A DNA stretch of 21,012 bases, from IMG/VR virus record IMGVR_UViG_3300033571_011686, positions 1 to 21,012 of that record; one strand, 5' to 3'. Each line of letters opens with the position of its first letter. The first letter of the stretch is position 1. This DNA comes from a virus. Both the position numbers and the translations under genes were made by a program. Shown piece after piece: positions 4,743 through 21,012 of the stretch. The notes below the pieces were generated by a model, which made no database searches, had not been told where the DNA came from, and saw only the letters and a list, made by a program, of their open reading frames with translations.

Positions 4743-5714
4743 TTATTTTTCCGATTTCAATTGATCTATTTCGTTCTTTAAATGTTTAACTGCTTCAATA
4801 AGCAATGGCACAAGTTTGTCGTACCTAACAGCCTTTATACCGTTTTCTCTGGTAACTACTGCTTCTGGTAGAACTTTTTCAATGTCTTGAGCAATAACAC
4901 CAACGTCGTGTTTTCTGACAAAATAGTTATCCTCACCACCACGCTCATCAATATATGACTGAACCCAATCAAACTCAACGCCTTGAATATACATTATCTT
5001 ATCAATAGCATTTTCAATCGGTGTAATATTTTCTTTCAGATTACGGTCAGAAGAGAAGAATGCAGTAACGTCGCCAGTTGCTCTGAAATCACCAGTAGCA
5101 CCAGCGGCAGGAGCGCCAACACCAACTGAGTTGAACTGAGCGTTCAATGACACGCTGGTGAAGTTTGTAGATGATCCAGCGACACTGATGTTCCATGTGC
5201 CGAATGCGCCTGTGCCATCTTTTTGAACAATGGCGTCACCAGGAGCTACCTGTCCAGATGCAAGGCCTACGTTTCTGATTGCCGAATCGCCCAATGAAAG
5301 GTTAGCACGTGCTGCTGCTTTGTTTGGAATATCAGCAAGGTTCTGATCACGAACAAGAGGAGGAGGACCACCAGCGCCCCAATAAAGGTTGTTGCCGTCT
5401 GACATCAAAAACGATCCAGGAGTTCCAGGAGATCCTGCAGCGAAAATGGTTGCGCCGTTATTGAAAATAAGATCAGAGCTACTGTTTAACGTAATAGGGG
5501 CAGAATAATATTGTGCAGCGTTCCATGTGAATGAAAAATAAGTATTAACTTGGCCAGACTCAGAAGCCCACATAACAGCAGAACCGTTTGACGTCAGTCG
5601 TTGTCCTGGCGCTCCTAATGTTCCCTGTGCAGAGATACCTACGTTATTTACTATCTTTAATACAGAATTGGATACTGTCAATCCATTCTTGACTACGAAA
5701 TCTCTATCGGCCAT
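4743..5714 (-). CDS. Tail fibre protein with C-terminal S74 intramolecular chaperone
   Basis: A 323-aa protein. Residues 1-17 (MADRDFVVKNGLTVSNS) form an N-terminus typical of cyanophage fibre proteins. Residues near 122-150 (NLADIPNKAAARANLSLGD, then SAIRNVG) match the common tail-fibre repeat. The last about 100 residues are a peptidase S74 / intramolecular chaperone domain: SSDRNLKENI at 221-230, VGVIAQDIEKVLPEAV near 271-286, then VRYDKLVPLLIEAVKHLKNEI. In this family the domain drives trimer folding and then cuts itself off with a serine-lysine dyad; S222 and K227 have the expected spacing. The final helix is a probable trimeric coiled coil. The ribosome site AGGGAA precedes the ATG at 5714. 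Confidence 0.9.
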   Translation of the reverse strand: MADRDFVVKNGLTVSNSVLKIVNNVGISAQGTLGAPGQRLTSNGSAVMWASESGQVNTYFSFTWNAAQYYSAPITLNSSSDLIFNNGATIFAAGSPGTPGSFLMSDGNNLYWGAGGPPPLVRDQNLADIPNKAAARANLSLGDSAIRNVGLASGQVAPGDAIVQKDGTGAFGTWNISVAGSSTNFTSVSLNAQFNSVGVGAPAAGATGDFRATGDVTAFFSSDRNLKENITPIENAIDKIMYIQGVEFDWVQSYIDERGGEDNYFVRKHDVGVIAQDIEKVLPEAVVTRENGIKAVRYDKLVPLLIEAVKHLKNEIDQLKSEK

Positions 5715-12865: not shown

Positions 12866-14461
12866 TTATAGCTGAATGACCAGCTTAAACTCTTCTGTCT
12901 GAAAACCAGTTCTTGTAACTTTATTTATATTCTGAACATAGAGAGGATACAGGTCTTTTGAATATACGTCGGCTCTCTTTTCCACTGATATTTGGCTGAT
13001 CAGAACGCCGTTAGCATATAATATGTTCTCGCCATCTTTGAACGTTTGATCTCCGACAATAGAAAGCTCGGTGTTGCTTGCAGTAACAATCATTCCTCTT
13101 GAACTGCTCATCTCTCCGATAACAGTTTGACCAACAAGGGCTAACTGATTAACACCACAAACTAACAGCTGATTAATAGTGTTTCCTGTATACTTGACAC
13201 TCTTTGATGCGTCGCCCTGATCAAGTTTATAAGGATTTCTGATTAATCCTATTTTGTCATATGTAACATCGTCTGGTATTGTTCCAGTCTCGTTGTTGGC
13301 AAACTGAAATGATACGGCAAATCCCAGAACATTAAGCTCTGATTCAGGATCAGCGCCATGACCACCAGGAGGAGGAACAATAGCATAAAGATTAGCTGCT
13401 CTGCCATATGAAGGATTTGAATAAACACTTACGTTCGCCCATGAGACCTCTGAACCAGAATCAATAATAACAACCTTACTAATCGAGTTTGATGTTGCAT
13501 TGATTACTGAATAAGCCTTCGGTGACAAACCATCAGATTCAATAACGATTCTTGGTGAGATTGAATATCTCGTTGAACCAGGAATAATATTGTCGGTGTT
13601 TGCTTCACCATCTAATACGATAAATCTGCTCTTTGACTGTGTATAATAATCAGCGATTCTGAAAAGCTGTGCAGTGGCAGAAGAACTATTGTAGATATAA
13701 ATCGCATTGTTGTTGTAATATTGATCTTCGGCATAAGCATCGTTGCCTATTTCTAACACTGTAGAGTTGGTGAACGACTGGATAATACCATCATTCCACG
13801 TTCTATAATCAACACCACCATTAACAATATTGATAATATCAACACCACAGTATTTCTCTGATGTTGTTTGAATATCTTGATCGCCGTTAATAGGAGACAA
13901 ACCATCGCTCAGATTAAGATCGCCAGTAGAGAATCTGAACATGTTCTTATTTGATACAGTTGTAAGATATCTCCATTTATATCCATCAGATGTCTGAAAC
14001 GTGGTCTTTTGTGTTGGGTCGTTAATCGTTCCTGGATCAACTAATGATGGTGTGCCTTTTTTAGTAATCGGGTCGTAGTTGTTGTCAATGCATTTATAAA
14101 CGTAGTAACCACCACCGAAATCTTTGCCTTGATACACTCTCTGTGAATAAACGTAATAACCGCCTTCTTCAATAAAGTTCACAATGGTATTGTCGTATCT
14201 TTTATAAATCGTTCCTGATGTCCAGAGAGCTCTTTTGATCACCGGAGCAAAATTGTTGTACTGGAGCTTTTTGCCAAATACCATCTTCCAGTCGTTAAGA
14301 AAATTGATTGAATAATCATTGTTAACGATTGGTGGTATTGTGTCAAACGGAGGAGCCTGTGGGTCTGCAGCGAATGCATAATAACTGGACTGGCCGTCCA
14401 ATATATTTTCTAGCAAATCTTGAATGATAGCTTTTCTATAAGACGCTGTTAGTTTTCCCAT
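12866..14461 (-). CDS. 8: T4 gp8-like baseplate wedge protein
   Basis: In T4, gp8 is a dimeric component of the baseplate wedge beside gp7 and gp10. The 531-aa product is longer than T4 gp8 (334 aa), but the gp8 pattern is visible in the first 180 residues. A helical N-terminus is followed by LNDWKMVFGKKLQ, then APVIKR, then GGYYVYKCIDNN (T4: GWLVYRCLDV), and SDGYKWRYLTTVS (T4: GDGYVWEYLFEIP). The C-terminal 350 residues are beta-rich and include a PPPGGHGADPESELN segment, a composition seen in the extended gp8 of marine T4-like phages. The ATG at 14461 is preceded by GGAAG and by two late-promoter boxes. The giant DUF4815 gene follows after 14 bases. Confidence 0.85.
   Translation of the reverse strand: MGKLTASYRKAIIQDLLENILDGQSSYYAFAADPQAPPFDTIPPIVNNDYSINFLNDWKMVFGKKLQYNNFAPVIKRALWTSGTIYKRYDNTIVNFIEEGGYYVYSQRVYQGKDFGGGYYVYKCIDNNYDPITKKGTPSLVDPGTINDPTQKTTFQTSDGYKWRYLTTVSNKNMFRFSTGDLNLSDGLSPINGDQDIQTTSEKYCGVDIINIVNGGVDYRTWNDGIIQSFTNSTVLEIGNDAYAEDQYYNNNAIYIYNSSSATAQLFRIADYYTQSKSRFIVLDGEANTDNIIPGSTRYSISPRIVIESDGLSPKAYSVINATSNSISKVVIIDSGSEVSWANVSVYSNPSYGRAANLYAIVPPPGGHGADPESELNVLGFAVSFQFANNETGTIPDDVTYDKIGLIRNPYKLDQGDASKSVKYTGNTINQLLVCGVNQLALVGQTVIGEMSSSRGMIVTASNTELSIVGDQTFKDGENILYANGVLISQISVEKRADVYSKDLYPLYVQNINKVTRTGFQTEEFKLVIQL
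12922..12929 (-). promoter_or_regulatory. Late promoter box (TATAAATA) upstream of the DUF4815 gene
   Basis: An exact TATAAATA on the minus strand, inside the last codons of gp8 (QNINKV). The predicted start site is near 12916, giving a leader of about 65 bases before the ATG at 12851. It would let the giant gene be transcribed separately from gp8. It lies within coding sequence, so it could be chance, but the match is full-length. Confidence 0.5.
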
Positions 14462-14500: not shown

Positions 14501-14508
14501 TATTTATT
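14501..14508 (-). promoter_or_regulatory. Second late-promoter-like box (AATAAATA) upstream of gp8
   Basis: AATAAATA on the minus strand fits the relaxed NATAAATA late motif of cyanophages. It begins inside the TAA stop of the upstream glycine-rich gene (TAATAAATA) and lies 15 bases upstream of the exact TATAAATA. The predicted start is near 14495. The pair could act as tandem starts, or this copy could be incidental. Confidence 0.4.
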
Positions 14509-16807
14509 AGATTTTGAACGATCCAGATCCAGTGAAAGTATACCAATAAAATCCTTCTTTGTTTTCAAATATTGGATCGCCAGTTACTGTTGCTTGTGGT
14601 AGTTGGTTTGAATATTTTAATATAACAATACCAGAGCCGCCATTATAACCAGAAAAATATGGAGATAATCTGTCTCCATAATAACCTATTCCAGCACCAC
14701 CACCTCCTCCAGAGTTTGGTTCGCCGTTAGAACCTGCATAAGCATAACTACCACTTGTCGTCCAATACGCCGCAGATCCACCTCCACCAACTCCTCCTAT
14801 ACCATAACCAGATTGTATTGTTCCAGTTCCACCTCCACCTCCTCCATAAGTTCCAGGAAATCCATCTTTTGATGTTCCTGGTCCACCGTTACCACCATTA
14901 TTCCTTTGAGTGCTACTGGCCCCAGCACCAATTGCTCCACCTCCACCACCACCTTCAAATGCATATGCATACCCTGTTGTAAAAGCTCTACCACCAGAAT
15001 ACCCACTTCCAGAAAAACCAGCAATAGATGGGCTAGAAGTTGTTTTAGAAGATTTTCCTGGATTACATGTTGCTACATCTGATATTGAAGAAACTCCTCC
15101 ATCATCACCATTATTCCATACACCTTCATCGGCAAGTATTCCACCAGCACCACCAGCACCCACAGTAACAATGTATGTTTTGCCTTTTTCTAAATCAAAA
15201 TATCTTTTTTGGACATCTGAACCGCCACCACCAGCAGCACCACCATTATTTGTTCCACCACCGCCACCAGAAACTAATAATGCCTGTCCTAAATATGTTG
15301 GAGGTACTGGATTTTTTAATATGATTGATCCAGATCCAGTAAATGTGTAAACTCTCCAGTTATCATAATAAGAGATTTGTGGGTCTCCTGTTGTATCTGC
15401 TATTTCTGCTGATGCTGGTTCTTTAATGATTACTACACCAGAGCCACCTGGATTAGTTCTATCGCAAAGAATTCCCCACTGAGAACCACCACCTCCACCT
15501 GTGTTAACTACTCCAGCAACAAATCCAGGACAATCAGCTGTTGTTGGATAATAACTTCTTCCACCGCCACCTTTACCACCCATTCCTTCGTAGTGAGGAC
15601 TTGAACCAGAGTTTATATTTCCTACAGCTCCACCACCACCACCAAAATATTCTTCTACACCACGAATAAATGTTTGTTTTCCATCTCCACCATTAATGGG
15701 TATTCCTTGAACAGCATCATCACCTTTAGCTGCTGCGCCACCTCCACCAGCATGTCCTTCCCAAGCAGCAAAACTTCCTGGCTCATTATTAACATCGCCT
15801 CCAGGAAATCCTTGACCTTCAACACCAGATCCACCAACATAACTTGGTCCATTTTGACTTGCTGCTCCACTACCACAACCGCCATTTTTACCATTAGATC
15901 TTGCAGATTCATACTTGGAGAGACCACCTCCACCACCATAACAAATAATATCTCCAAAAGAACTATTTTCTCCATTAGATCCATCTAGATTATTTCTAAA
16001 ACTACCTGGAGCACCACCACTACCGATAATAATATTATATTGTTTTCCATATTCTGGAGTGAACTTTTCGTTTAATACACCACCAGCACCGGCACCAGAA
16101 CCTTCAAAACTACCACCACCTCCACCAGCAGCCATAAGATATTCATATTCATATGTTGGAGGAGGTGGAGGAGGTTCACCAGAAGTATAAAACAGTTTCC
16201 AAGTAGTTCCGTCTTTCGTCCATCCTTGTTTAATGGTTTGCCACACACCATTATTCTTAACAAAGAATCCACCAGAGCCAGCACCAACAGCACTTGCCAC
16301 TGTGTTATATTTTATTATTATGAGACCTTTGTGACCACTACTACCGTTTGAGCCTTTTGTGTTATCATTACTTTCTTGACCACCAATACCATTTTTGCCA
16401 AAATCACCAGCATTAAAAAGTTCATCGGATTGTTCTTTATAATCATGAACACCAGATCCTACCCAAAAACCAGCAGTTCCTCCTGGTGCACAAACAGAAG
16501 ATTCGTTTTCAAACCATGTTGATTCACCAGAGAATCCTGAGTCTGCCGAGAATGTTCCTCCGGCACCACCAGCACCTCCATTGCCTATATTATATTTGAC
16601 AAATGTTTCTAATCTTAAGGATACGTTTGTTTTTTTAGTGTGTATACCACTGCTACCGTTTGATCCTGCACCTCTGCCTTTGGCACATCCACCAGAGCCG
16701 CCACCACCTCCACCAACGACTTGAATTGAGTTGCTCTTGTTGTTCCAATCATTTGGAACAAACCATTCAAATCCATTGAAGAGATAGATGGTGGCGAATT
16801 TTGCCAT
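14507..16807 (-). CDS. Three-module glycine-rich adhesin / tail fibre protein
   Basis: A 766-aa protein of three glycine-rich modules. Module 1 (residues 1 to about 172) begins IYLFNGFEWFVPNDW, where other adhesins have a beta strand before the first glycine run. A tryptophan-rich insert (FVKNNGVWQTIKQGW, then TWKLFYTSGE) and a hexaproline hinge (16157-16174) follow. Modules 2 and 3 each begin YLMAAGGGGG- or ALLVSGGGGG-like and end with a GSGVVIIKxx strand plus a 21-residue TGDP...FTGSG linker (15329-15391 and 14522-14584). These glycine-rich domains resemble phage receptor-binding poly-glycine domains. It is probably a host-recognition protein at a fibre tip; the receptor is unknown. The ATG abuts the stop of the 132-aa gene, and no good ribosome site is visible, so coupling is likely. 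Confidence 0.8.
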   Translation of the reverse strand: MAKFATIYLFNGFEWFVPNDWNNKSNSIQVVGGGGGGSGGCAKGRGAGSNGSSGIHTKKTNVSLRLETFVKYNIGNGGAGGAGGTFSADSGFSGESTWFENESSVCAPGGTAGFWVGSGVHDYKEQSDELFNAGDFGKNGIGGQESNDNTKGSNGSSGHKGLIIIKYNTVASAVGAGSGGFFVKNNGVWQTIKQGWTKDGTTWKLFYTSGEPPPPPPTYEYEYLMAAGGGGGSFEGSGAGAGGVLNEKFTPEYGKQYNIIIGSGGAPGSFRNNLDGSNGENSSFGDIICYGGGGGLSKYESARSNGKNGGCGSGAASQNGPSYVGGSGVEGQGFPGGDVNNEPGSFAAWEGHAGGGGAAAKGDDAVQGIPINGGDGKQTFIRGVEEYFGGGGGAVGNINSGSSPHYEGMGGKGGGGRSYYPTTADCPGFVAGVVNTGGGGGSQWGILCDRTNPGGSGVVIIKEPASAEIADTTGDPQISYYDNWRVYTFTGSGSIILKNPVPPTYLGQALLVSGGGGGTNNGGAAGGGGSDVQKRYFDLEKGKTYIVTVGAGGAGGILADEGVWNNGDDGGVSSISDVATCNPGKSSKTTSSPSIAGFSGSGYSGGRAFTTGYAYAFEGGGGGGAIGAGASSTQRNNGGNGGPGTSKDGFPGTYGGGGGGTGTIQSGYGIGGVGGGGSAAYWTTSGSYAYAGSNGEPNSGGGGGAGIGYYGDRLSPYFSGYNGGSGIVILKYSNQLPQATVTGDPIFENKEGFYWYTFTGSGSFKI
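14522..14584 (-). repeat. TGDP linker repeat, copy 1 (766-aa gene, C-terminal)
   Basis: A 21-residue unit starting TGDP and ending FTGSG, at the very end of the protein and followed only by SFKI. It shares length, ends and an aromatic-rich middle with five other copies in the window. Confidence 0.75.
15329..15391 (-). repeat. TGDP linker repeat, copy 2 (766-aa gene, internal)
   Basis: A 21-residue unit from TGDP to FTGSG joining glycine-rich modules 2 and 3 of the 766-aa protein. The middle (ISYYDNWRVY) is aromatic-rich, as in copy 1. Confidence 0.75.
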
Positions 16808-17206
16808 TTATTTTTTGGGAGCTTTAGCTGCTGGATCTCTTGTCTCTACCCATTTAGTTGTTGCTTCATCCCAACGATATAGTTTGCCATCATCAGGCAT
16901 AGGTACAGGTGCTTCCCAACGAGCGTTTGCATCCAACACCCATGATTCGTATGGCTTCGGTGCAACAAAAGCACCATCGCTACCGATTTCTTTTCGGAAA
17001 GCATATCCTCTACCAGGATAGTTGTGCCTCTTGTTGCCATTGTAACTGCACTGAGCCCAGTTGGTGTTTTGACCTAATAGTTTTTTGCAGAATGCAATAC
17101 CAAGCGATTCCTGTTCAACACCTTTATCGTCAGTGATAACGCTGTTATTAACAACGATAACACGTTTTACAATAAAGTTCTCATCCAATTCAGCAAAATG
17201 TGCCAT
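16808..17206 (-). CDS. Small virion-associated protein of a family common in cyanophages
   Basis: A 132-aa protein. Its plan matches a family I recognise from cyanophage genomes: MAHFAELDENFIVKRVIVV, then DDKGVEQESLGIAFCKKLLG near 26-45, then a basic YPGRGYAFRKEIGSDGAFVAP stretch, then PKPYESWVLDANARWEAPVP near 83-102, and a WDEATTKWVE end. Members lie among fibre and structural genes; no biochemical role is known to me. A lysine- and alanine-rich tail (AAKAPKK) closes it. The ribosome site GAGGAAAC eight bases ahead of the ATG is one of the strongest in the window. It sits between two glycine-rich adhesins, which suggests an adaptor, assembly or accessory role; this is inference from position. 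Confidence 0.75.
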   Translation of the reverse strand: MAHFAELDENFIVKRVIVVNNSVITDDKGVEQESLGIAFCKKLLGQNTNWAQCSYNGNKRHNYPGRGYAFRKEIGSDGAFVAPKPYESWVLDANARWEAPVPMPDDGKLYRWDEATTKWVETRDPAAKAPKK

Positions 17207-17224: not shown

Positions 17225-18880
17225 TTAGAATGTTATAGATCCTGAACCTGTAAATGTTATTATGTTACGCCCATTTTTTGTTTCAATAACTGGATCTCCA
17301 GTGGTTTCTTTTGGTAGATCATATTCATCAGAATATACAATGATAACAGCACCAGAACCACCAGCAGCAGCAACATAAGTTCCATCAGTAGCACCTCCAC
17401 CACCGCTTCCAGTATTAATAGCGCCAACAGTAGCACTTCTTGTGTTCTGTTGCGCTCCATTACCACCTACTCCAGAACCACCAGCAGGAGAATTATTTCT
17501 TGATCCACCACCACCGCCACCAGCGTATACAATTCCATCTGGTCCTGTTATACCATTACCACCATTTCCATTAGTAGCCCCTACGCTATTGGCACCACCG
17601 CCACCACCGCCGTTATTATTAGAAGTACCATTGCCTCCTCTATTTCCTTGTCCAGCAACTGGAGCACCACCAGTACCATTTTCCTGACCACCACCACCAG
17701 AACCACCAGCTTTACCAGCAGCAGAACCGTTAATACCTCCGGCGCCACCACCTGTAGCAGTTGAACCGGATAAATCAGAATTTGATCCGTTTGTAGAAGT
17801 TCCGCCACCACCGCCAACTGTAGCAGTAAGAGTTGTTCCTGTGGCCACTGCTTTAGTGCCAGTTAAATAACCTCCTGCACCGCCACCACCCGAAAACTGA
17901 GAGCCTGATTGTCCACCACCACCGCCACCAGCAACCACAAGATAATCTACTGTTTTTGGTGCTCCTTGACCAACTTTAAACGTTCCTGTTCCATTGTATT
18001 GATAACAATGACCACCTGGTATTTTAGTATAAACAGGGTCGCCAGTAACAGTTGCTAATGGATATGTATCTGCGTATGTGATAATAACAACGCCATCTCC
18101 ACCTTTACCACCGTTGGCAGTATAGCCAGCACCACCGCCACCAGAACCTGTATTAACAGATCCGTCAGTGCCATTAGTGTTATAACCTCCATTACCACCG
18201 ATTCCTGAACCACCAGAAGCACCACCAGAACTACCACCACCACCGCCACCAGCGGCATAGAATTTAGCAGTGCTAGTAATAGAAGACTGAATACCTGCAG
18301 CACCAGCACCACCAGTATTTACGTTAGCTGCTGCACCATTACTAACAGGGCTACCGCCGCCGCCACCACCGCCACCATTGGCGCCACCACCGTTACCGCC
18401 AGCATTACCTTGACCGCTTGTGCCATTACCACCGACACCGTAATAATCTGTGCCACCACCACCAGAGCCACCAGTAGCGCCATTACGATCTGCAGGATCT
18501 CCAGCGCCTCTACCACCACCTTTAGCGACTAAATTATTGAATGAAGAATCTCCGCCATTAATTCCCAATGCACCATTAACTACACCACCGGCACCACCGG
18601 AACCAACAACCACGTTATATAAATTACCAATTTGAATAGTATCAACGCCTGACAAAAGTCCACCAGCACCACCACCGCCGCCTCCACCTACAGCACTTCC
18701 ACCACCATTATAACCACCACCACCACCACCACCGCCAGCAACCAGTAAATAATTTAATGAGACTTCTGTGGGTGTTGGTCCAGGACCATCACTGGTGAAC
18801 TGTAGCCACTGACCATTCTTCTTGATCCATCCACCTTTGGTAGTCAACCAAACGCCATTTTTTTTAATGCTCATTGACAT
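17225..18880 (-). CDS. Two-module glycine-rich adhesin (body of a stop-split gene)
   Basis: A 551-aa protein. The first about 40 residues (MSMSIKKNGVWLTTKGGWIK, then KNGQWLQFTSDGPGPTPTE) are a Lys/Trp repeat and proline hinge. Then come two glycine-rich modules, starting YLLVAGGGGGGGG and YLVVAGGGGGG, separated and ended by the 21-residue TGDP linkers. It is homologous along its length to the body of the gene that ends at 19144. There the same parts are fused to an N-terminal domain; here that domain is a separate 76-aa gene in the same reading frame, with only TAA-TGT between its last codon and this ATG. AAGG in the last codons of that gene serves as ribosome site; the ATG at 18874 is an alternative start. 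The probable role is receptor binding. Confidence 0.8.
   Translation of the reverse strand: MSMSIKKNGVWLTTKGGWIKKNGQWLQFTSDGPGPTPTEVSLNYLLVAGGGGGGGGYNGGGSAVGGGGGGGAGGLLSGVDTIQIGNLYNVVVGSGGAGGVVNGALGINGGDSSFNNLVAKGGGRGAGDPADRNGATGGSGGGGTDYYGVGGNGTSGQGNAGGNGGGANGGGGGGGGSPVSNGAAANVNTGGAGAAGIQSSITSTAKFYAAGGGGGGSSGGASGGSGIGGNGGYNTNGTDGSVNTGSGGGGAGYTANGGKGGDGVVIITYADTYPLATVTGDPVYTKIPGGHCYQYNGTGTFKVGQGAPKTVDYLVVAGGGGGGQSGSQFSGGGGAGGYLTGTKAVATGTTLTATVGGGGGTSTNGSNSDLSGSTATGGGAGGINGSAAGKAGGSGGGGQENGTGGAPVAGQGNRGGNGTSNNNGGGGGGANSVGATNGNGGNGITGPDGIVYAGGGGGGSRNNSPAGGSGVGGNGAQQNTRSATVGAINTGSGGGGATDGTYVAAAGGSGAVIIVYSDEYDLPKETTGDPVIETKNGRNIITFTGSGSITF
17240..17302 (-). repeat. TGDP linker repeat, copy 3 (551-aa gene, C-terminal)
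   Basis: A 21-residue unit TGDPVIETKNGRN...FTGSG at the protein end. It is nearly identical to copy 5 at the end of the paralogous gene (differences at V/I, N/H and I/V). Confidence 0.8.
17984..18046 (-). repeat. TGDP linker repeat, copy 4 (551-aa gene, internal)
   Basis: A 21-residue unit TGDPVYTKIPGGH...YNGTG between the two glycine-rich modules. It is the counterpart of copy 6, sharing the preceding ATV and the VYTKIPG core. Confidence 0.8.
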
Positions 18881-18883
18881 ACA

Positions 18884-19114
18884 TTATACCTTATACCAAA
18901 TCCAATTTTCATCGCCTTGATTAGGATCAGGATCTAGAGTGGATACAATAATCTTATCGTTCTGGAATGGAGTTTTACCTTCATCATCGGCAAACAATAT
19001 TTTTCGTGGTCCAAATGCAGCAGCACCAACAGAGATTGAACCATCTGTCTCGAGAGTCAGATTGTCTTTCTCACTAACTGGATGTTTGATTACTGTTGTT
19101 TGAAGTGTTGACAT
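18884..19114 (-). CDS. Small fibre N-terminal-domain protein (split from the following adhesin)
   Basis: A 76-aa protein. Residues 18-76 (NLTLETDGSISVGAA..., then PFQNDKIIVSTLDPDPNQGD, ENWIWYKV) align without gaps to the N-terminal domain of the fused paralog at 20803-20979; I count 33 identities in 59 residues. It therefore appears to be that domain as a free protein. The LTLETDGSISVG phrase looks like a virion attachment or beta-strand module of phage fibres. Its TAA is in frame with the following 551-aa gene, one codon before that ATG, so readthrough would yield a protein of about 629 aa. A late-promoter box (AATAAATA) and AAGGG lie upstream of the ATG at 19114, with a leader of about 18 bases. 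Function as a separate protein is unproven. Confidence 0.75.
   Translation of the reverse strand: MSTLQTTVIKHPVSEKDNLTLETDGSISVGAAAFGPRKILFADDEGKTPFQNDKIIVSTLDPDPNQGDENWIWYKV
18887..19063 (-). repeat. Duplicated fibre N-terminal domain, separate copy
   Basis: 59 residues homologous to 20803-20979, with conserved DGSI, PFQxDKIIVS and QGDENWxW motifs. Together with the shared downstream architecture it shows duplication of a whole adhesin gene. Confidence 0.8.
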
Positions 19115-19137
19115 TGTTTAACCCTTAATATCTGTGT

Positions 19138-19145
19138 TATTTATT
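19138..19145 (-). promoter_or_regulatory. Late-promoter-like box (AATAAATA) upstream of the 76-aa gene
   Basis: AATAAATA on the minus strand, overlapping the TAA stop of the upstream adhesin as TAATAAATA. The predicted start near 19132 leaves an 18-base leader containing AAGGG before the ATG at 19114. The geometry is almost the same as for the exact late box before gp8, which makes this more credible than the sequence alone. Confidence 0.55.
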
Positions 19146-21012
19146 ACCATGTTATAGTGCCGGAACCTGTGAAAGTTATTACGTGTCTACCATTTTTAGT
19201 TTCAATTATTGGATCTCCAGTAGTTTCAGTTGGCAATTCATATGTATCATCATAACCTATAATTACAATACCAGATCCACCAGTGTAGCTGTGAAAATTA
19301 CCTCCACCTCCTCCACCGCCGCCTGTATTTACTTGTCCATTAGTACCATCGTTAGTGTCATGATGTGTACCATTTCCTCCACCACCAACACCACCTTTGC
19401 CTCCAGTTTGACCAGCACCAGTAGATCCAGTTGTGGCCCCACCACCGCCTCCTGCATATGTAACAGATTCGCCTGAAATTAACGTAGTCTTTCCATCTCC
19501 ACCAGCTGCACCATTAAAATTATCAACTGCATCTGCACCAGGACCACCAGCACCACCACCACCGCCAGCTGCAGATGTTGTAGCACCAGGAGAACCCCTA
19601 CCTATTCCTCCATTATATCCTTGTGGTGGATCTAATGATGGAGTATTCCCTGCTCCTCCAGGTGAATTTTTGTTGGCACCACCGCCACCAGAACCACCAT
19701 CGAAACCAGAAGAAGGATTGCTTGGACCATAACCACCACCACCGCCACCAGATGCTGTGAATGCATAAAAACTACTATCTCCACCTTTTCCACTGCCAAT
19801 GGTGCCACCGCTCCCAATTGTAGCAGTGTATGTTGTTCCTTTTGTTATACTGAAAGTGCTTTCTATAAATCCACCTGCACCTCCACCACCACCGTTCGCA
19901 TCTGCACCATTACCAACAGTACCACCGCCACCACCACCAGCGACAATCAAACAATCTGCTAAACTTGGAATAGCTTCTCCGAATTTAATAGTACCAGAAC
20001 CATTAAATTGAAACTTATGGAATCCAGGTATTTTTGTATAAACTGGATCTCCAGTAACAGTAGCTTTTGGATATTTGTCTTGATAAACAATAATAACAAC
20101 ACCAGAACCACCATTAGCGACAGGAACTGCTAAATGTTCACAACCACCTCCACCGCCACCAGTATTTGGAGAACCTTGAAAACCATTCCCTCTTCCACCG
20201 CCACCAGCGCCTCCCTGACCATCTCCTTGACCAGCAGAACCACCGCCGCCACCACCAGCATAATAAACGTCAAGGAACTGTAGCCCTGCACCACCATCCA
20301 TACCTTGACCCATTATACCAGCACCACCACCGCCACCACCAGCATTACCTGCTGGGTTACGGGCTCCATCGTTACCTTGACCTTCTACGCCAGAACCACC
20401 TGGATCTGCTCCTGGAGAAGCAGCAGAATTACCACCAGCGCCGCCGCCAGAACCACCAGCGTTTCCTGGCCTATCTACGTGAATACCACCACCACCTCCA
20501 CCAGAGGCAGTTATACCAGCAAAACTACTAACACCACCTGTTCCACCTTTAGCATCATAAACATGAGTTCCACCAGCACCAACAGCAATATTATAAATTT
20601 GTTCTTCTAATACTGTGTATATGCCTGTTAAAAAACCTCCAGCACCACCGCCTCCTCCTACCCAGCCACCACCAGCACCACCACCAGCGACAACGAGATA
20701 TTGGATATTATAGGCAGATGGTGTTGGGCCAGGACCACCACCAGCACTAGCAAACTGTAACCAAACGTTATTTCTTTTGATCCAAGCCCCTTGATTAGAA
20801 GAAACATTAAACCATAACCAGTTTTCATCTCCTTGTGTAGGATTAGGATCTGCTATAGATACAATAATCTTATCAGCTTGAAATGGTATTTTACTATTTT
20901 TATCAGCAACAATGGGGGCATCAGGTGCTAGTGTACCTGCACCAAGAACAATAGAACCATCAGCATTAAGCGTGATGTTGTTCGATTGGTCTTTTCCTAC
21001 TATTCCAGAGCC
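19144..21012 (-). CDS. Fused N-terminal domain + two-module glycine-rich adhesin (5' end outside window)
   Basis: The frame is open to the right edge: 622 visible residues, so the true start lies beyond 21012. The ATG at 20313 is internal to a glycine-rich module and not the start. Visible residues 12-70 are the DGSI / PFQADKIIVS / GDENWLW domain, followed by WIKRNNVWLQF, a GPGPTPS hinge, glycine-rich module 1 (from YLVVAGGGAGGG), a TGDP linker (19993-20055), module 2 (from CLIVAGGGGGG), and a terminal TGDP linker ending GSGTITW. This is the same order as the split 76-aa plus 551-aa pair downstream. It is probably a fibre adhesin attached to the virion by its N-terminal part. The TAA stop is embedded in a late-promoter box for the next gene. 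Confidence 0.8.
   Translation of the reverse strand, partial: GSGIVGKDQSNNITLNADGSIVLGAGTLAPDAPIVADKNSKIPFQADKIIVSIADPNPTQGDENWLWFNVSSNQGAWIKRNNVWLQFASAGGGPGPTPSAYNIQYLVVAGGGAGGGWVGGGGGAGGFLTGIYTVLEEQIYNIAVGAGGTHVYDAKGGTGGVSSFAGITASGGGGGGIHVDRPGNAGGSGGGAGGNSAASPGADPGGSGVEGQGNDGARNPAGNAGGGGGGAGIMGQGMDGGAGLQFLDVYYAGGGGGGSAGQGDGQGGAGGGGRGNGFQGSPNTGGGGGGCEHLAVPVANGGSGVVIIVYQDKYPKATVTGDPVYTKIPGFHKFQFNGSGTIKFGEAIPSLADCLIVAGGGGGGTVGNGADANGGGGGAGGFIESTFSITKGTTYTATIGSGGTIGSGKGGDSSFYAFTASGGGGGGYGPSNPSSGFDGGSGGGGANKNSPGGAGNTPSLDPPQGYNGGIGRGSPGATTSAAGGGGGAGGPGADAVDNFNGAAGGDGKTTLISGESVTYAGGGGGATTGSTGAGQTGGKGGVGGGGNGTHHDTNDGTNGQVNTGGGGGGGGNFHSYTGGSGIVIIGYDDTYELPTETTGDPIIETKNGRHVITFTGSGTITW
19159..19221 (-). 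repeat. TGDP linker repeat, copy 5 (fused adhesin, C-terminal)
   Basis: A 21-residue unit TGDPIIETKNGRH...FTGSG at the end of the fused adhesin; it is the direct counterpart of copy 3. Confidence 0.8.
19993..20055 (-). repeat. TGDP linker repeat, copy 6 (fused adhesin, internal)
   Basis: A 21-residue unit TGDPVYTKIPGFH...FNGSG between the two glycine-rich modules; it is the counterpart of copy 4. Confidence 0.8.
20803..20979 (-). repeat. Duplicated fibre N-terminal domain, fused copy
   Basis: 59 residues homologous to 18887-19063 (33 identical by eye, no gaps), here continuous with the glycine-rich body. Confidence 0.8.

Follow-up and report, generated by a model that had tools for sequence, protein, structure and literature searches.

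A fibre-end gene and a separate glycine-rich adhesin gene probably underlie an apparently split adhesin in a phage tail region

The pair of open reading frames that looks like one adhesin gene interrupted by a TAA codon is very probably a pair of genes and not one broken gene: the first would encode a 76-aa fibre-end protein and the second a separate glycine-rich adhesin of 551 aa. The sequence analysed is an entire IMG/VR record of 21,012 bp (referred to here as the window). Judging from its gene content, the region is the tail region of a myovirus-like phage, since the neighbours of the pair include a baseplate-wedge-like protein and a 1955-aa DUF4815 protein. As the earlier note had described, the two frames are in one register with only a TAA and a TGT codon between them, and the downstream ATG has an AAGG of its own; at the junction, the minus strand reads TGG TAT AAG GTA TAA TGT ATG TCA ATG AGC. 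The sharing of a frame across such a tiny gap is not unusual here, since 5 of the 17 adjacent gene pairs in the whole window count as in frame under the measure applied, and 13 of the 17 intergenic distances are overlaps or gaps below 20 nt, tight packing being usual in this cluster. The features of the pair are as follows:

19122..19126, minus strand: AAGGG, Shine-Dalgarno sequence of the 76-aa gene, 7 nt before its ATG (from the sequence)
18884..19114, minus strand: 76-aa fibre-end gene, with the start segment MSTLQTTVIKHPVSEKDNLTLETDGSISVG and a C-terminal tip motif common to the C-termini of the relatives
18887..18979, minus strand: C-terminal tip motif, residues 46-76, ending ...WIWYKV (from the alignment)
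18889-18892, minus strand: AAGG, Shine-Dalgarno sequence of the 551-aa gene, within the Lys-Val codons of the upstream gene and 8 nt before the ATG
18884-18886, minus strand: TAA that ends the 76-aa gene; judged from the relatives, it marks a conserved C-terminus rather than a lesion
18881-18883, minus strand: TGT codon between TAA and ATG (from the sequence)
18878-18880, minus strand: ATG start of the 551-aa frame (from the sequence)
17225..18880, minus strand: 551-aa glycine-rich adhesin B with two Gly-rich blocks (PF21722, E 4.9e-33; phrog_2295, E 4.4e-64)
18797..18880, minus strand: N-terminal Trp-repeat of adhesin B (MSMSIKKNGVWLTTKGGWIKKNGQWLQF), defined by the alignment with L141 and presumed to be the attachment segment

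The identity of the TAA is revealed by the relatives. With the wedge-like protein as the first lead, we obtained the relatives L085-L088 (wedge-like protein about 45% identical at best), which are near-identical to one another at the junction: the protein before the adhesin ends ...SDKIIISSTEPDPAQGGQNWIWFKV, followed by a stop, and a glycine-rich gene comes next. A search with an alignment of the tip end added four more independent contigs, L139-L142, and a second scan returned the identical set. The comparison set thus consists of five independent lineages (L087, L139, L140, L141 and L142), none of them close. In all five, the C-termini of tail-fibre or other large proteins match the end of the 76-aa protein, DKIIVSTLDPDPNQGDENWIWYKV*. 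The alignment of seven sequences defines a tip motif with ten invariant positions (DK.I, P, QG, NW.W, V), and the 76-aa frame agrees with the relatives at every one of them. The stop follows directly after Lys-Val in L087, L139, L140 and L142, whereas L141 has one further residue before it. Since the upstream proteins closed by this motif in L139, L140 and L142 match tail-fibre or collagen-like tail families, the 76-aa protein, by sequence comparison, carries a segment that elsewhere closes a tail fibre at its C-terminus, and the TAA sits where that terminus normally lies. A glycine-rich frame of 267-528 aa (Gly fraction 0.30-0.36) begins 1-4 nt past the stop in each of the five relatives. Thus, the idea that an adhesin gene has been split by the TAA is not supported: the stop marks a gene end that five independent lineages have conserved, and the comparison of the junction in related phages, which the earlier note had called for, finds the adhesin unfused in 5/5 outside lineages.

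The combination of the tip motif with a coupled adhesin gene was found only in these five lineages. Scanning of the viral contigs with the 76-aa and 551-aa proteins alone gave no confirmed relatives, and the genome contigs yielded no confirmed match to the tip alignment. A degenerate tip-end pattern hit L156, L160 and L161, which are chance matches in unrelated genes; a near-exact junction pattern gave chance matches only (L165-L167), and no second copy or assembly of this phage was found with it. The 76-aa protein has no family match in Pfam, PHROG or NCBIfam (the NCBIfam search gave no matches at all), the tip motif matches nothing significantly among solved structures, and the predicted structure of the 76-aa protein is of low confidence (pLDDT 48). 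Searches against phages with tblastn and blastn returned nothing useful apart from weak matches to P-SSP7 at E 0.1: the 76-aa start (MSTLQTTVIKHPVSEKDNLTLETDGS) resembles the start of the tail fibre of this podovirus (MATLNATNLKHASSSSNNIVLAADGS), a phage of quite different type from the one carrying the 76-aa gene.

The beginning of the second gene is conserved as well. From its Met onwards, the 551-aa protein gives a gapless alignment of 56 residues to the start of the separately encoded adhesin in L141, and the ATG region is therefore, at the sequence level, a conserved gene start. In the window as in each of the five relatives, the Lys-Val codons contain an AAGG that lies 6-9 nt ahead of the adhesin ATG, and AAGGT is present at the corresponding codons in 5/5 relatives. 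The Lys codon at the tip end is AAG in all six cases, although AAA is the commoner Lys codon in five of the six. If the AAG fractions of the Lys codons (5/12, 15/31, 3/4, 17/41, 4/17 and 0.36) are multiplied, codon usage alone would give AAG in all six with a probability of about 0.005. This is modest evidence that the AAG codon may be kept for a second role as Shine-Dalgarno sequence. With the stop and the downstream start conserved as gene end and gene start, the proposal of two polypeptides is well supported.

The neighbouring paralog, adhesin A, has the corresponding parts in one frame:

19144..21012, minus strand: adhesin A, tip motif and Gly-rich adhesin in one open reading frame, 622 aa seen, with the 5' end off the contig
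20785..20808, minus strand: fusion joint in A (NVSSNQGA), where AAG GT- TAA is replaced by AAT GTT TCT

Adhesin A is 55% identical to the 551-aa protein B and open across the point matching the TAA. It reads ...WFNVSSNQGAWIKRNNVW, with AAT for AAG and TCT for TAA as compared to the two-gene form, and it lacks the stop, the AAGG Shine-Dalgarno sequence and a net 13 codons, among them the start and the first Trp-repeat of the 551-aa protein. The earlier statement that the paralog holds the same domains in fused form was thus correct as to the matching parts being in one frame, but the parts are not exactly identical. Since these elements are missing from A and the outside lineages are unfused in 5/5 cases, the simplest history that the sequences suggest is that the fusion in A is the derived state and the two-gene form the ancestral one. 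As the pattern in the relatives indicates, the two parts would have been fused when the stop was lost and a net 13 codons were deleted in frame.

The same data bear on the other ways in which the junction can be read. That a recent nonsense mutation or a sequencing error broke an ancestral fused gene resembling A, as the earlier note had considered, might seem attractive because both frames are in one register and the paralog is fused. It is very unlikely: four independent lineages have the stop at the homologous position and the fifth has it one codon further on, the fused paralog is itself probably the derived form, and the two-gene form possesses three things that A lacks, namely a Shine-Dalgarno sequence, a start and the full-length N-terminus of the adhesin, none of which a single base substitution in an A-like gene would create. 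Programmed readthrough of the TAA, which was proposed to place the tip motif on a minority of the 551-aa adhesins in a product of about 629 aa, relies on the frame common to both genes in the window and likewise in L087. The adhesin is in a different frame from the upstream gene in L139, L140, L141 and L142 despite the same gene order, and the two in-frame cases among six correspond to the chance expectation of one in three. Since it is out of frame in four of the five relatives, readthrough cannot be a conserved function. Moreover, a TAA with T as the next base, as here, terminates translation strongly. We consider readthrough extremely unlikely; as a private trait of this phage it is not supported, with nothing in the sequence to favour it beyond the common frame.

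The 76-aa frame might also be the decaying, non-functional remnant of a duplicated fibre/adhesin gene, so that only the 551-aa adhesin would matter. Duplication and decay are plausible since the locus has three related Gly-rich genes, and no stand-alone 76-aa form was seen among the relatives in the scans with the tip-end alignment. Such decay seems unlikely, as the 76-aa frame is intact and has a good Shine-Dalgarno sequence and start of its own, the ten invariant tip positions are kept, and the gene supplies the Shine-Dalgarno sequence of the next one.

We therefore return to two genes. The 76-aa product would be a minimal protein of the fibre end, in which the tip motif comes after a fibre-like start segment, and the 551-aa product a separate glycine-rich adhesin with the Trp-repeat at its N-terminus. 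Both proteins are probably made from one message by coupled initiation. Since the AAGG sits in the last two codons of the first gene, the second gene may be started by ordinary initiation or by termination-reinitiation coupling, as far as the signals in the sequence tell. The tip motif would form the end of a fibre or an adaptor, probably trimeric; adhesin B, probably also a trimer, would by analogy dock on this end through its Trp-repeat, and its Gly-rich loops would contact the host receptor. It is tempting to speculate that one virion carries two versions of the receptor-binding tip, a two-polypeptide version (76-aa adaptor and adhesin B) and a fused one (A), a possibility that we regard as rather doubtful. 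If true, the 76-aa protein would be a stand-alone adaptor to which the adhesin docks without a long fibre of its own. Our work describes a previously uncharacterised fibre-end motif to which adhesin genes are coupled in five phage lineages. It also sets right an easy misreading: the 'split' adhesin would be the ancestral two-gene state. This is a modest evolutionary point, and the locus may provide a natural case in which a fibre end and an adhesin became fused by in-frame deletion beside an unfused copy.

Further genes of the tail region are listed here:

14507..16807, minus strand: 766-aa adhesin C, in which a Trp-repeat links an L087-type adhesin block to a B-type adhesin (from sequence comparison)
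16808..17206, minus strand: 132-aa protein of phrog_7759, a frequent neighbour of Gly-rich adhesins (from PHROG and a locus survey)
12866-14461: baseplate-wedge-like protein (from a family match)

The 551-aa protein, paralog A and the 766-aa protein all belong to Pfam Gly_rich_2 (PF21722) and phrog_2295; they score 115.5, 132.6 and 114.2 bits, respectively, above the curated PF21722 cut-off of 24.3 bits. Adhesin C seems chimeric: its first ~170 residues are like the adhesin start of the L087/L139/L140 type (MAK...W.VP.DWN), and thereafter a Trp-repeat is followed by a 551-type Gly-rich adhesin, whereas the adhesins of L087, L139 and L140 have their Trp-repeats C-terminally. For the phrog_7759 protein, viral contigs contain at least 590 relatives, and an upstream Gly-rich frame ends within 60 nt of its gene in 24 of 73 usable loci and within 3 kb in 64 of the 73; the protein may act as a partner of the adhesin or as its chaperone. 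A 323-aa protein (4743-5714, minus strand) with a C-terminal Peptidase_S74 (endosialidase chaperone) domain (E 5.9e-16) is a further type of fibre protein in the tail region.

A sequence search against solved structures gave no match, and matches to phrog_863 are weak and limited to A and C. In an AF2 model of paralog A, the Gly-rich parts are confident (mean pLDDT 81) and the first 100 residues are of low confidence. The model strongly matches many predicted viral Gly-rich proteins. The nearest solved folds are the Bxb1 tail tip protein (9d93_Qa, PDB 9D93; E 3.5e-3, TMt 0.51) and gp24 of cyanophage Pam3 (7ypx_A; E 4.8e-3, prob 1.00, TMt 0.38), at weak Foldseek E-values of 0.0035-0.02. Pam3 gp24 is described as a trimer with a TNF-like domain and a Gly-rich lattice (7YPX, 7YFW; PMC9608196), and it differs from the adhesins described here in having a docking helix of its own and a single Gly-rich head. 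The arrangement of a fibre-end protein with a directly following, separate glycine-rich adhesin gene, present in the window and in the five relatives, is like that of gp37 and gp38 in T2/S16-type phages. The gp38 of S16 begins with helices, sits as a single monomer on a trimer and is attached through an N-terminal domain whose Trp residues are exposed (PDB 6F45; PMC6851490, PMC12892980). Adhesin B likewise has its Trp-repeat at the N-terminus. In contrast to the helices of S16 gp38, short strands are predicted, with low confidence, at the N-terminal end of A, and each adhesin has two Gly-rich blocks; moreover, the 76-aa 'fibre' is far shorter than gp37. The mark of gp38 is a polyglycine sandwich on a beta-helix that is recognisable against 6F45, and 6F45 is absent from the 50 best fold matches of the A model. 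The comparison is therefore one of gene arrangement and working principle, and not of membership. The phrog_2295/Gly_rich_2 proteins of aquatic phages such as Synechococcus phage Bellamy belong to the same domain family as the adhesins of the window, but the tip motif with its coupled adhesin gene is confined to the five lineages found here. Finally, in-register deletions that fuse neighbouring fibre genes have been observed directly for ltfA and ltfB of the T5-like phages DT57C and DT571/2 (PMC4728585). The ltf proteins are unrelated to those described here and their fusions were found in laboratory-grown stocks (PMC4728585), but at both loci neighbouring fibre genes occur as two proteins or, after an in-frame deletion, as one.
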